Source of the DNA: Peristeroidobacter agariperforans
GTDB taxonomy: Bacteria; Pseudomonadota; Gammaproteobacteria; Steroidobacterales; Steroidobacteraceae
DNA length: 64,000 nt
Assembly (NCBI RefSeq): GCF_004138335.1
Contig: NZ_RYFW01000002.1
Span: 62,001 to 126,000, forward strand
Direction of reading: 5' to 3'
Made by a program: the position numbers and the translations under genes. Shown here one piece after another: positions 16,229 through 18,195 of the stretch (the stretch's first letter is position 1; each line of letters begins with the position of its first letter). The notes under the pieces were generated by a model. It did no database searches. It was not told the DNA's origin and worked only from the letters and a program-made list of their open reading frames with translations.

Positions 16229-16256
16229 TTGACAGGCCCCGGCCCGAGCCTTTAGC
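16229..16256 (+). promoter_or_regulatory. Sigma-70-type promoter for the AK-HSD gene
   Basis: A perfect -35 hexamer TTGACA (16229-16234) is followed after 16 bp by TTTAGC (16251-16256) as a moderate -10. Predicted transcription starts near 16,263, exactly at the 5' edge of the SAM-II-like aptamer. The fit of promoter, aptamer and terminator supports all three. Confidence 0.6.
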
Positions 16257-16263
16257 GTTCGCC

Positions 16264-16313
16264 TTGCGCCGATTTGAGTTCAGCTTGCGGGCGCGTAAGA
16301 AATACGGCTAAAG
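16264..16313 (+). ncRNA. SAM-II-like (SAM_alpha) riboswitch aptamer
   Basis: The 50-nt stretch has the SAM-II layout: P1 5' strand UGCGCC (16265-16270), conserved loop GAUUUGAG, GCUUGC before the P1 3' strand GGCGCG (16290-16295), then a 17-nt block that aligns without gaps to the known aptamer and ends in the invariant GCUAAAG (16307-16313). SAM-II binds S-adenosylmethionine and is known upstream of methionine-synthesis genes. The pseudoknot stem P2 is weak by eye (positions equivalent to the known pairing give one C-A mismatch and wobbles), so this is a diverged member. The downstream gene makes homoserine, the methionine precursor, which fits. Confidence 0.75.
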
Positions 16314-16319
16314 CGAAGC

Positions 16320-16353
16320 AACCCTGCTTGAGCTTTGGCGAGCGGGTTTTTTT
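16320..16353 (+). terminator. Intrinsic terminator of the riboswitch expression platform
   Basis: AACCC (16320-16324) plus GCU (16326-16328) pairs with AGC plus GGGUU (16341-16348), with a single bulged U and a 12-nt loop, followed by a run of seven T (16347-16353). It begins 7 nt after the aptamer and lies about 95 bp before the likely start codon. The 5' arm can alternatively pair with aptamer bases 16282-16291, which would form an antiterminator. Confidence 0.8.
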
Positions 16354-16446
16354 ATGCCTGCTTGCCGACCACCGACCCCGGTCGCCGTCTCTTTCCCGCC
16401 AGCCCTCGTCGACGCCTTGAACCAACGGAACAGGCTGGAGAGTGGC

Positions 16447-18195
16447 GTGAATCCTTCCATTGTCGTGCTCAAATTCGGCAGCTCGGTGTTACAGACCGAA
16501 GCGGATCTGCCGCAAGCGATCGATGAGATCTACCGTGAATGGCGTGCTGGCCGGCGAGTGATCGCCGTGGTCTCGGCTTTTGCGGGCGTCACAGATCAGC
16601 GCTTTGCGCAGACTCGAGCTGTCACGAACGATCTGCACGAGCAGGCCGCCTGGGTCGCAGGCGGCGAAGAAGAATCCGGCACCAAGTTGGCTGCGGCGTT
16701 GATCGCCAACGGCGTGTCGGCCCGTTACGTCGATGCCCGCGAAGCGGGGCTGCGCGCGCATGGCGAACCGCACGAGTCCACGCCGGTTGCATTGAACGCC
16801 AGTTATCTCCACGACCATCTGTGCGATCACGCAGTGCTGGTCGTGCCCGGATTCATCGCGCAGGATATTCAAGGCCGCACGGTATTGCTGGGTCGCGGCG
16901 GCTCAGACCTCACGGCGTTGTTCCTTGCCAAGAGTCTGGAAGCGCGCTGTCGTCTGTTGAAGGACGTCGACGGCGTTTATGAAAGCGATCCAGCGGTGGT
17001 GGAGAATCACGCGCAACGTTTCAATCGGTTGAGCTGGCGCACGGCGCTGGAGATCGGCGGACGAATCATTCAACCGCGTGCGCTGCAATTCGCCCAGTCG
17101 CATGGGCAGTCGTTCGAAGTCGCGTGTGTGGGGTCGAACTTGTCTACACTGGTCGATCACGGTCCCGACGACATTGCGACCGTTCCTCACGAAAACATCC
17201 AACCCGTGCGCGTCGTGCTGCTCGGCCTGGGCACGGTCGGTCTCGGCGTGTATGCGCATTTGATCCGCCGGCCGGATTTGTTTCAGGTCGTGCGCATCGT
17301 CGTCAGAGACCTGGACAAGCCGCGGCGGATCGACGAAGCCAATCTGGAGGTGCCGAAGTCGTTGCTATCGGTCGACCCCTGGGATGCCGTTACGCAGCCC
17401 GCTGATCTGGTCATCGAGACCATCGGTGGCCTCGAGCCGGCCGGGGAGATCGTGCACGCGGCGCTGCTGCGCGGGCGCGCGGTGGTGACAGCAAACAAAG
17501 CGCTGATCGCTTCCCGCTGGTGGGAAAAGCTGGCGCGCTTCGCCACGGGCAACCAACCTCTCCTGAAATTCGGCGCCGCGGTCGGCGGCGCCGTGCCGGT
17601 GCTCGAAACCGTGAGCGCGCTGGCCCGTCATGCCGGTGTCTTGCAGGTGCGCGCCATCCTCAACGGTACGTGCAACTTCATTCTCGACGCCCTCGAGCAG
17701 CGGATAGACTTCGACACGGCGCTCGCGCAGGCACAGGCTAACGGCTTCGCCGAAGCCGATCCGCATGACGACCTGGTGGGACTGGATGCTGCGCGCAAGC
17801 TGGAATTGATTGCACGAGCCGCCTTTGGCGAGGCCTCGCACTTCGAGCTGAATGTGCGCGGCATAGTCGGAGTGACGGCCAGCCAGGCGGCGTTGGTGCG
17901 CGAGGAAGGGCTGAGTCTGAAGCTGGTCGGCGTCTGCGAGCGAAGTGAAGGGCATGTCCGGGGTGTAGTAAAACTTCAGGAGCTGCCGGCGAGCGATTTC
18001 CTGGCAGGGGCGCGGGCCGAACAGAATCGGGTCGAGATCGTGGCAGGAAACGGCCAGGTAGTGCGTCTGGCGGGGAAGGGCGCGGGCCGTTGGCCGACCG
18101 CACTTTCCATCCTGGGCGATGTCCATGAATACTTGCGGGAGGGGCGCATTGCCCAGCAGGACGAGCAGGTGCAGCCCGCGGTTGTGAATGCATGA
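16447..18195 (+). CDS. Aspartokinase-homoserine dehydrogenase fusion lacking ACT domains
   Basis: 582 residues from GTG 16447, chosen because GGAG lies 6 bp upstream; the frame is open back to ATG 16354, but that codon abuts the terminator T-run. Residues about 1-245 are an amino-acid-kinase domain: 'VLKFGSSVL' (family usually KFGGTS), 'GRGGSDLTA', 'DVDGVYESDP'. Residues about 255-575 are homoserine dehydrogenase: 'GLGTVGLGVY', 'TANKALI', 'LNGTCNFIL', 'EADPHDDLVGLDAARKLEL' with the catalytic Lys. Classical ThrA/MetL are about 810 residues with two ACT domains between; these are missing. It would convert aspartate to aspartyl-phosphate and aspartate semialdehyde to homoserine. The SAM-II-like leader suggests methionine-branch (MetL-like) use. 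Kinase motifs deviate (KFGSS, IIQP for VLHP), so kinase activity needs care. Confidence 0.85.
   Translation: MNPSIVVLKFGSSVLQTEADLPQAIDEIYREWRAGRRVIAVVSAFAGVTDQRFAQTRAVTNDLHEQAAWVAGGEEESGTKLAAALIANGVSARYVDAREAGLRAHGEPHESTPVALNASYLHDHLCDHAVLVVPGFIAQDIQGRTVLLGRGGSDLTALFLAKSLEARCRLLKDVDGVYESDPAVVENHAQRFNRLSWRTALEIGGRIIQPRALQFAQSHGQSFEVACVGSNLSTLVDHGPDDIATVPHENIQPVRVVLLGLGTVGLGVYAHLIRRPDLFQVVRIVVRDLDKPRRIDEANLEVPKSLLSVDPWDAVTQPADLVIETIGGLEPAGEIVHAALLRGRAVVTANKALIASRWWEKLARFATGNQPLLKFGAAVGGAVPVLETVSALARHAGVLQVRAILNGTCNFILDALEQRIDFDTALAQAQANGFAEADPHDDLVGLDAARKLELIARAAFGEASHFELNVRGIVGVTASQAALVREEGLSLKLVGVCERSEGHVRGVVKLQELPASDFLAGARAEQNRVEIVAGNGQVVRLAGKGAGRWPTALSILGDVHEYLREGRIAQQDEQVQPAVVNA

Follow-up and report, generated by a model that had tools for sequence, protein, structure and literature searches.

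Positions 16265–16317 of the window (the whole 64-kb stretch of DNA analyzed here) encode an aptamer of the SAM-II pseudoknot type; an intrinsic terminator and then the gene for a bifunctional aspartokinase-homoserine dehydrogenase (AK-HSD) come after it. Judged by its sequence, the element is confirmed as real. The leader RNA very probably senses S-adenosylmethionine (SAM), its predicted ligand, and stops transcription when SAM is plentiful, and we predict with high confidence that it is a transcriptional OFF switch controlling a second AK-HSD that lacks ACT domains. A sequence-only reading had already proposed a SAM-II-like aptamer with a terminator in front of an AK-HSD gene. This core stood, but its view that the mechanism and the target are unusual did not: switches of this type are known and widespread, and only the controlled enzyme, which is without the usual built-in feedback domain, is mildly out of the ordinary.

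Table 1. Features of the leader and of the gene behind it (positions in the window).
Feature	Position	Strand	Details
-35 hexamer TTGACA	16229–16234	+	From sequence; 42 nt upstream of GATTT
P1 hairpin	16265–16295	+	UGCGCC (16265–16270) pairs with GGCGCG (16290–16295); closes a loop with GAUUUGAG and the 5' P2 strand
P2 pseudoknot	16279–16317	+	UUC-a-GC-UU-GC (16279–16288) with GC-u-AA-a-GC-GAA (16307–16317)
Predicted SAM pocket (P1 loop and P2)	UUU 16273–16275; UUGC 16285–16288; GCUAAA 16307–16312	+	Core strings
Predicted antiterminator hairpin	16307–16339	+	GCUAAAGC/GCUUUGGC plus AAGCA/UGCUU; MFE -16.9 kcal/mol
Intrinsic terminator	16320–16353	+	AACCC-u-GCUUG/CGAGC-GGGUU stem; seven-T tract 16347–16353; -12.4 kcal/mol
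Shine-Dalgarno-like GGAG	16437–16440	+	From sequence; six bases upstream of GTG 16447
Bifunctional AK-HSD	16447–18195	+	Probable start GTG 16447; 582 aa

A SAM-II-type aptamer under the Rfam threshold

The string GATTTGA..CAGCTTGC..GCTAAA (16271–16312) occurs once in the 64 kb, and none of 100 shuffled sequences matched it. GAUUU, CUUGC and GCUAAA all lie within this span, and presumably they are the SAM contacts of the SAM-II crystal structure. We also took their contact role from the SAM-V structure paper (PMC6061858), which calls the SAM-V and SAM-II sites virtually identical.

No Rfam family reached its gathering score anywhere in the 64-kb window. At a permissive threshold, SAM_alpha (RF00521) matched 16256–16328 over its full length (model positions 1–79) with 27.8 bits. 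The sequence-only reading had offered this model as a check and had named a score below threshold as one half of what would speak against it; the match is complete, but it falls short of the curated threshold of 36 bits. Across the whole 7.65 Mb genome, the window gave the best SAM_alpha match (E 9e-4), the next being at E 0.23. A second model, R2, whose 44 training sequences all came from other, named records, gave the window a score of 74.6 bits (E 3.4e-15); the runner-up in the genome reached 22.5 bits. We reject chance as an origin of the aptamer because of this score and the complete lack of matches in shuffled sequence.

The Rfam cut-off was passed by 6 of 18 named motif loci, three of which (L058, L092 and L100) sit inside R2 itself, and a permissive search of 8 of the 18 loci placed SAM_alpha on the motif in all 8. 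Hence, the subfamily straddles the Rfam threshold rather than standing apart from it. We regard it as a common SAM-II subfamily of Beta- and Gammaproteobacteria that the Rfam cut-off mostly misses, as it did at the other 12 named loci. Collectively, the covariance models, the covariation and the competing antiterminator described below support a SAM-II-like aptamer with a terminator in front of the AK-HSD gene.

Covariation in P1 and P2

Relatives were gathered with the Rfam model from 60 genomes, among them that of the window, with E 0.05 as the upper limit. SAM_alpha was found at this level in 16 of the 60, 2 of them over the cut-off, and in 3 of 14 controls, none over it. Of the 19 Rfam-model matches, 17 went into alignment A2, which was thus chosen without the fixed pattern introduced below; L022 was dropped as a weak match (20.6 bits), and L020, a match in G006, was rejected as spurious, being partial and without GCTAAA. 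Alignment A3 comprises 44 of the 83 available references, picked by hand.

In A2 (n = 17), 94.1% of P1 cells, 90.2% of P2 cells and 91.8% of both together were paired; in A3 (n = 44), the values were 95.8% for P1 and 87.1% for P2. P1 pairs changed on both sides in three of six cases in A2 and in two of six in A3. The covariation score of P1 plus P2 in A2 was 0.122, against at most 0.061 in slid registers, and none of 500 shuffles was as high; that of A3 was 0.116, with slid registers at or under 0.047. We scored both helices as covarying: the P1 stem, and P2 as an H-type pseudoknot of the P1 loop with the 3' tail, its inner pairs mostly invariant. The signal comes from few pairs (for P2, two outer pairs per set), since inner P2 and most of P1 hardly vary, and the outer P2 pairs, columns 19–57 and 20–56 of A2, were unpaired in 7 and 3 of the 17 sequences, respectively. 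Further pair types in A2 did not rise above the controls (28 of 500 shuffles did as well, as did the +2 and +3 slides), and neither did the number of A3 pairs with both partners changed, which 111 of 500 shuffles equalled. UUU, CUUGC and GCUAAA were invariant in the 17 A2 sequences, and the G and A of GAUUU nearly so.

A larger set of 153 instances (135 non-redundant) was defined by matches to a fixed pattern (GATTT[GA]A, CA[GA]CTTGC and GCTAAA), so that conservation of these letters is built in. The pattern leaves the variable P2a letters free, but in the scan of named contigs GCGGGC was fixed as well, a constraint on P1. Among the 135 instances, 76% formed the first variable P2a pair (shuffled mean 58%, maximum of 1000 shuffles 66%), and the next two, in this register, were no better than chance (33% against a mean of 36%, and 42% against 38%). 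Since only the first variable pair beats its null, P2a is short in this subfamily. The earlier impression that P2 is weak by eye therefore fits the subfamily, but the window itself is able to form nine P2 pairs with bulges.

A terminator and a predicted competing antiterminator

The proposed TTGACA promoter was upheld only in its -35 hexamer: the -10 hexamer (near 16252–16257) is weak, and a full-consensus promoter scan returned none. TTGA[CA] was seen 76 times at 40–44 nt upstream of GATTT in the 135 non-redundant instances, and with such a fixed distance the transcript start would fall just before P1.

The intrinsic terminator with its seven T is present as claimed. A pattern scan placed its stem at 16323–16346, the single hit in 351 bases; shuffles averaged 0.5 hits, and taken by itself the terminator could thus have arisen by chance. 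The predicted antiterminator consumes the 3' strand of P2 together with the 5' arm and loop of the terminator and, in the predicted folds, excludes the terminator. When the nascent transcript was folded without pseudoknots, the antiterminator was dominant from about 16338 on.

We then judged the terminator in 151 of the 153 relatives, two being too short; by set criteria, 102 of the 151 carried one and 49 did not. The core paired downstream using the 5' arm of the terminator in 78 of the 102 terminator-bearing relatives, and the other 24 were without an antiterminator. In a permuted-core control, which a length limit restricted to 97 of the 102 instances, about 39 of the 97 (~40%) paired, against 74 of 97 observed. 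Words antisense to GCTAAAGC were found in 30 of 151 relatives, against 5.3 in shuffles.

An AK-HSD without ACT domains

The longest frame behind the leader runs from 16354 to 18195 (613 aa), its ATG directly after the T tract of the terminator. GTG 16447 is the probable start instead, since five orthologues align only from VNPSIVV. Pfam bore out the gene as AK-HSD, with AA_kinase, NAD_binding_3 and Homoserine_dh domains, and a Pfam search at E 0.001 found no ACT domain in the protein. The same genome encodes a normal ThrA of 840 aa with ACT domains. It also encodes a kinase-diaminopimelate decarboxylase fusion of 872 aa (L216, G000:C14:101000-105000), and its three aspartokinase genes hence have different partners.

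ThrA-sized frames (827–852 aa) with homoserine dehydrogenase occur in 12 of the 14 genus genomes, their domains having been checked in the window genome only. The ACT-less AK-HSD is present in 5 of the 14, and these same five gave riboswitch matches; absence of the riboswitch from the other nine refers to a strictly filtered Rfam search at E 0.05, in which the only further match was the spurious one in G006. The flanking M13-peptidase gene has homologues in all 14 genomes, at 87–100% identity only in the five with AK-HSD and at 70% or less elsewhere. A divergent gene for an AAA ATPase (PF13304; 15011–16201, minus strand) lies directly upstream of the element and has relatives in 6 of the 14 genomes; it is missing from one of the five with AK-HSD. 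Looking across the 14 genus genomes for an intact empty site in AK-HSD-less relatives, we thus obtained no simple picture of insertion or loss.

Proposed mechanism

From the sequence, the covariation, the competing predicted folds and the gene content, we infer that SAM is the ligand, that termination depends on it and that the switch has a metabolic role. The RNA would start from the TTGACA promoter near P1. At low SAM, the 3' strand of the aptamer, GCUAAAGC, would pair with GCUUUGGC in the terminator loop, AAGCA/UGCUU would complete the antiterminator, and RNA polymerase would read into the AK-HSD gene. At high SAM, the ligand would fill the P1/P2 pseudoknot and hold GCUAAAGCGAA in P2; the terminator arms would then be freed, and transcription would stop at the seven-U tract. 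The predicted sign of the switch is OFF because SAM would hold the P2 strand, so that the terminator forms. The supply of homoserine for methionine would be set by SAM at the RNA level rather than by allosteric feedback, since this second AK-HSD has no ACT domains.

A broader evolutionary scenario, which in our estimate may equally well be right or wrong, is that a methionine-dedicated AK-HSD lost its ACT domains, that feedback moved to a SAM-sensing RNA, and that gene and riboswitch were kept or lost together. There would then be one aspartokinase per branch: ThrA with its ACT domains, the kinase-diaminopimelate decarboxylase fusion, and the one controlled by the SAM riboswitch.

Distribution and targets of the motif

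At E 0.001, R2 had matches in 181 of the 370 genomes that were sampled from the class, and a further model, R1, matched 34 of 196 genomes of the order at E 0.01. Confinement of SAM-II to alphaproteobacteria is contradicted by the class-wide count, and also by PMC2704228. The fixed-pattern scan of named contigs returned at least 118 stretches; among the 80 matches listed, 42 bore a betaproteobacterial label and most others a gamma- or alphaproteobacterial one. Also among the matches listed were four metagenome-assembled genomes labelled Acidimicrobiia, Planctomycetota or Chloroflexi (L080, L091, L128 and L129), which could reflect either real spread or mis-binned contigs.

Targets were counted in the 134 of 153 instances with a frame of at least 120 aa within 600 nt. 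The main clusters were of O-succinylhomoserine sulfhydrylase type (36), MetX type (20) and homocysteine methyltransferase type (14), the smaller ones of SsuA type (6) and MTHFR type (3), counts that do not represent natural frequencies since the collection is weighted to relatives of the window and to the fixed pattern. At least 12 of the 134 instances, 5 of them from the window's genus, had an AK/HSD-type protein downstream. Named representatives were of metZ, metX, metA, metK, betaine-homocysteine methyltransferase, MTHFR and SsuA type, one per cluster, by HMM search, some from the first 260 residues and several with scores under curated cut-offs. Choosing the longest frame errs at times: a cluster of 8 members resembles out-of-frame metX, and the longest frame was wrong at L010 and L012, where the genes are HSD and AK-HSD, respectively. 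Outside the genus, ACT-less AK-HSDs stand behind the same RNA at L205, L206, L207, L208 and L072 (the HSD catalytic domain of L208 is under the Pfam cut-off), and the RNA also precedes kinase-only (L209 and L210) and HSD-only (L211) proteins.

Tandem copies were seen at L014/L026, L071, L099, L110 and L009/L024. In four of five aligned pairs, the second copy has a CCGCC/GGCGG P1 and combines GATTTAA with CAACTTGC, so that two distinct core positions both have A in place of G. One genome, G432, carries 10 copies as five tandem pairs (loci L276, L280, L286 and L289); they precede an uncharacterised protein, which had no Pfam match when examined at L276, and a protein identified at L286 as having an HD domain (HD_4). 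Copies in G525 (L284 and L287) precede a protein similar by eye to the uncharacterised one of G432. In the literature, 44 tandem SAM-II have been reported (PMC9481103), and SAM-II variants are mentioned (PMC2864571).

Alternative explanations

The same SAM-II aptamer might act on translation, SAM hiding the ribosome-binding site, as is thought for the Sargasso Sea SAM-II RNA and as is described for S. meliloti metA (PMC9373788). However, the GGAG of the AK-HSD gene is about 120 nt past P2 with the terminator in between, no complement to it was seen by eye in the aptamer, and the terminator and antiterminator are predicted to compete; we consider a translational output highly improbable. We give equally little credence to a SAM-II fold variant with a changed ligand, for example S-adenosylhomocysteine (SAH) or another metabolite of the pathway. 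Such a change would fit the score under the Rfam cut-off and a gene product that makes homoserine rather than methionine itself, and riboswitch classes can switch, as from SAM-I to spermidine (PMC10853860). Yet the core strings match the Rfam SAM_alpha consensus, the same subfamily precedes metX-, metZ-, metA- and metK-type genes, and the letters of the U-A-U triple that helps SAM-V to discriminate SAM from SAH (PMC6061858) are present here.

An antisense or trans-acting small RNA in place of a cis riboswitch was raised by a minus-strand match to RF02424 (Bp2_287) at 16232–16394, with 29 bits against a gathering score of 70. RF02424 also lies, below its cut-off, opposite the SAM-II motif in five of eight named loci (L058, L066, L071, L098 and L108); hence, this Burkholderia sRNA family seems to be the reverse strand of the SAM-II leader. 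Moreover, the terminator and the -35 box are on the plus strand and face the gene, and we find a small RNA scarcely credible.

Comparison with known systems

Published work on SAM-II riboswitches does not bear out the first proposal that output and target are unusual. Most SAM-II riboswitches are transcriptional according to the SAM-V structure paper (PMC6061858), and SAM-dependent termination has been predicted for S. meliloti metZ (PMC9373788). In their account of SAM_alpha, Leyn et al. (2014) give hom among its targets, with hom-metXC in Hyphomonadaceae, and place SAM_alpha only in Rhizobiales and Rhodobacterales (PMC4239095); AK/HSD-type proteins behind the motif, counted above, agree with such a target. 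No paper joining 'SAM-II riboswitch' with 'homoserine dehydrogenase' turned up among open-licence papers, a scope in which this shows little.

The window element shares with SAM_alpha the P1 stem, the P2 pseudoknot, the GAUUU/CUUGC/GCUAAA core, a terminator output (predicted here) and control of methionine-pathway genes. It differs from the Rfam consensus in a shorter loop and 3' tail (2 and 4 positions deleted), a nearly fixed GCGCC/GGCGC P1, a short P2a, a score of 27.8 bits against a cut-off of 36, and a fused AK-HSD as the target. The elements before hom-metXC in Hyphomonadaceae, as far as they are described, and before hom in Oceanicaulis (L106) likewise precede a short homoserine dehydrogenase, but one that is separate, without a fused kinase. 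At L106, hom is followed by genes resembling, by eye, metX and a metC/metB-type enzyme.

The subfamily probably also explains an orphan. For the metXZ element of betaproteobacteria, Leyn et al. (2014, PMC4239095) describe conserved regions that may form a pseudoknot, then a terminator, before metX or metZ, and they report it in front of metZ in Methylophilales and Nitrosospira. Our motif likewise precedes metZ-type genes, in Methylophilales HTCC2181 (L113) and in a Nitrosospira (L066). Pseudoknot, terminator, gene type and lineages are thus alike; the description in PMC4239095, however, treats the element as new and separate from SAM_alpha, with another alternative fold. The metXZ element is probably a SAM-II subfamily, an assignment drawn from the shared lineages and gene type.

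The gene recalls a protein-regulated system at the head of the same pathway. E. coli MetL (AK-HSD II) is a second isozyme, thought to serve methionine, and is repressed via MetJ when SAM is high. The AK-HSD of the window is likewise a second isozyme and resembles an RNA-regulated counterpart of MetL. MetL, by contrast, has ACT-type domains and a protein repressor, whereas the window enzyme is without ACT domains and would be under the control of an RNA. It offers a clean, testable case in which feedback on the first steps of the aspartate pathway would be carried by RNA instead of a regulatory domain of the protein.
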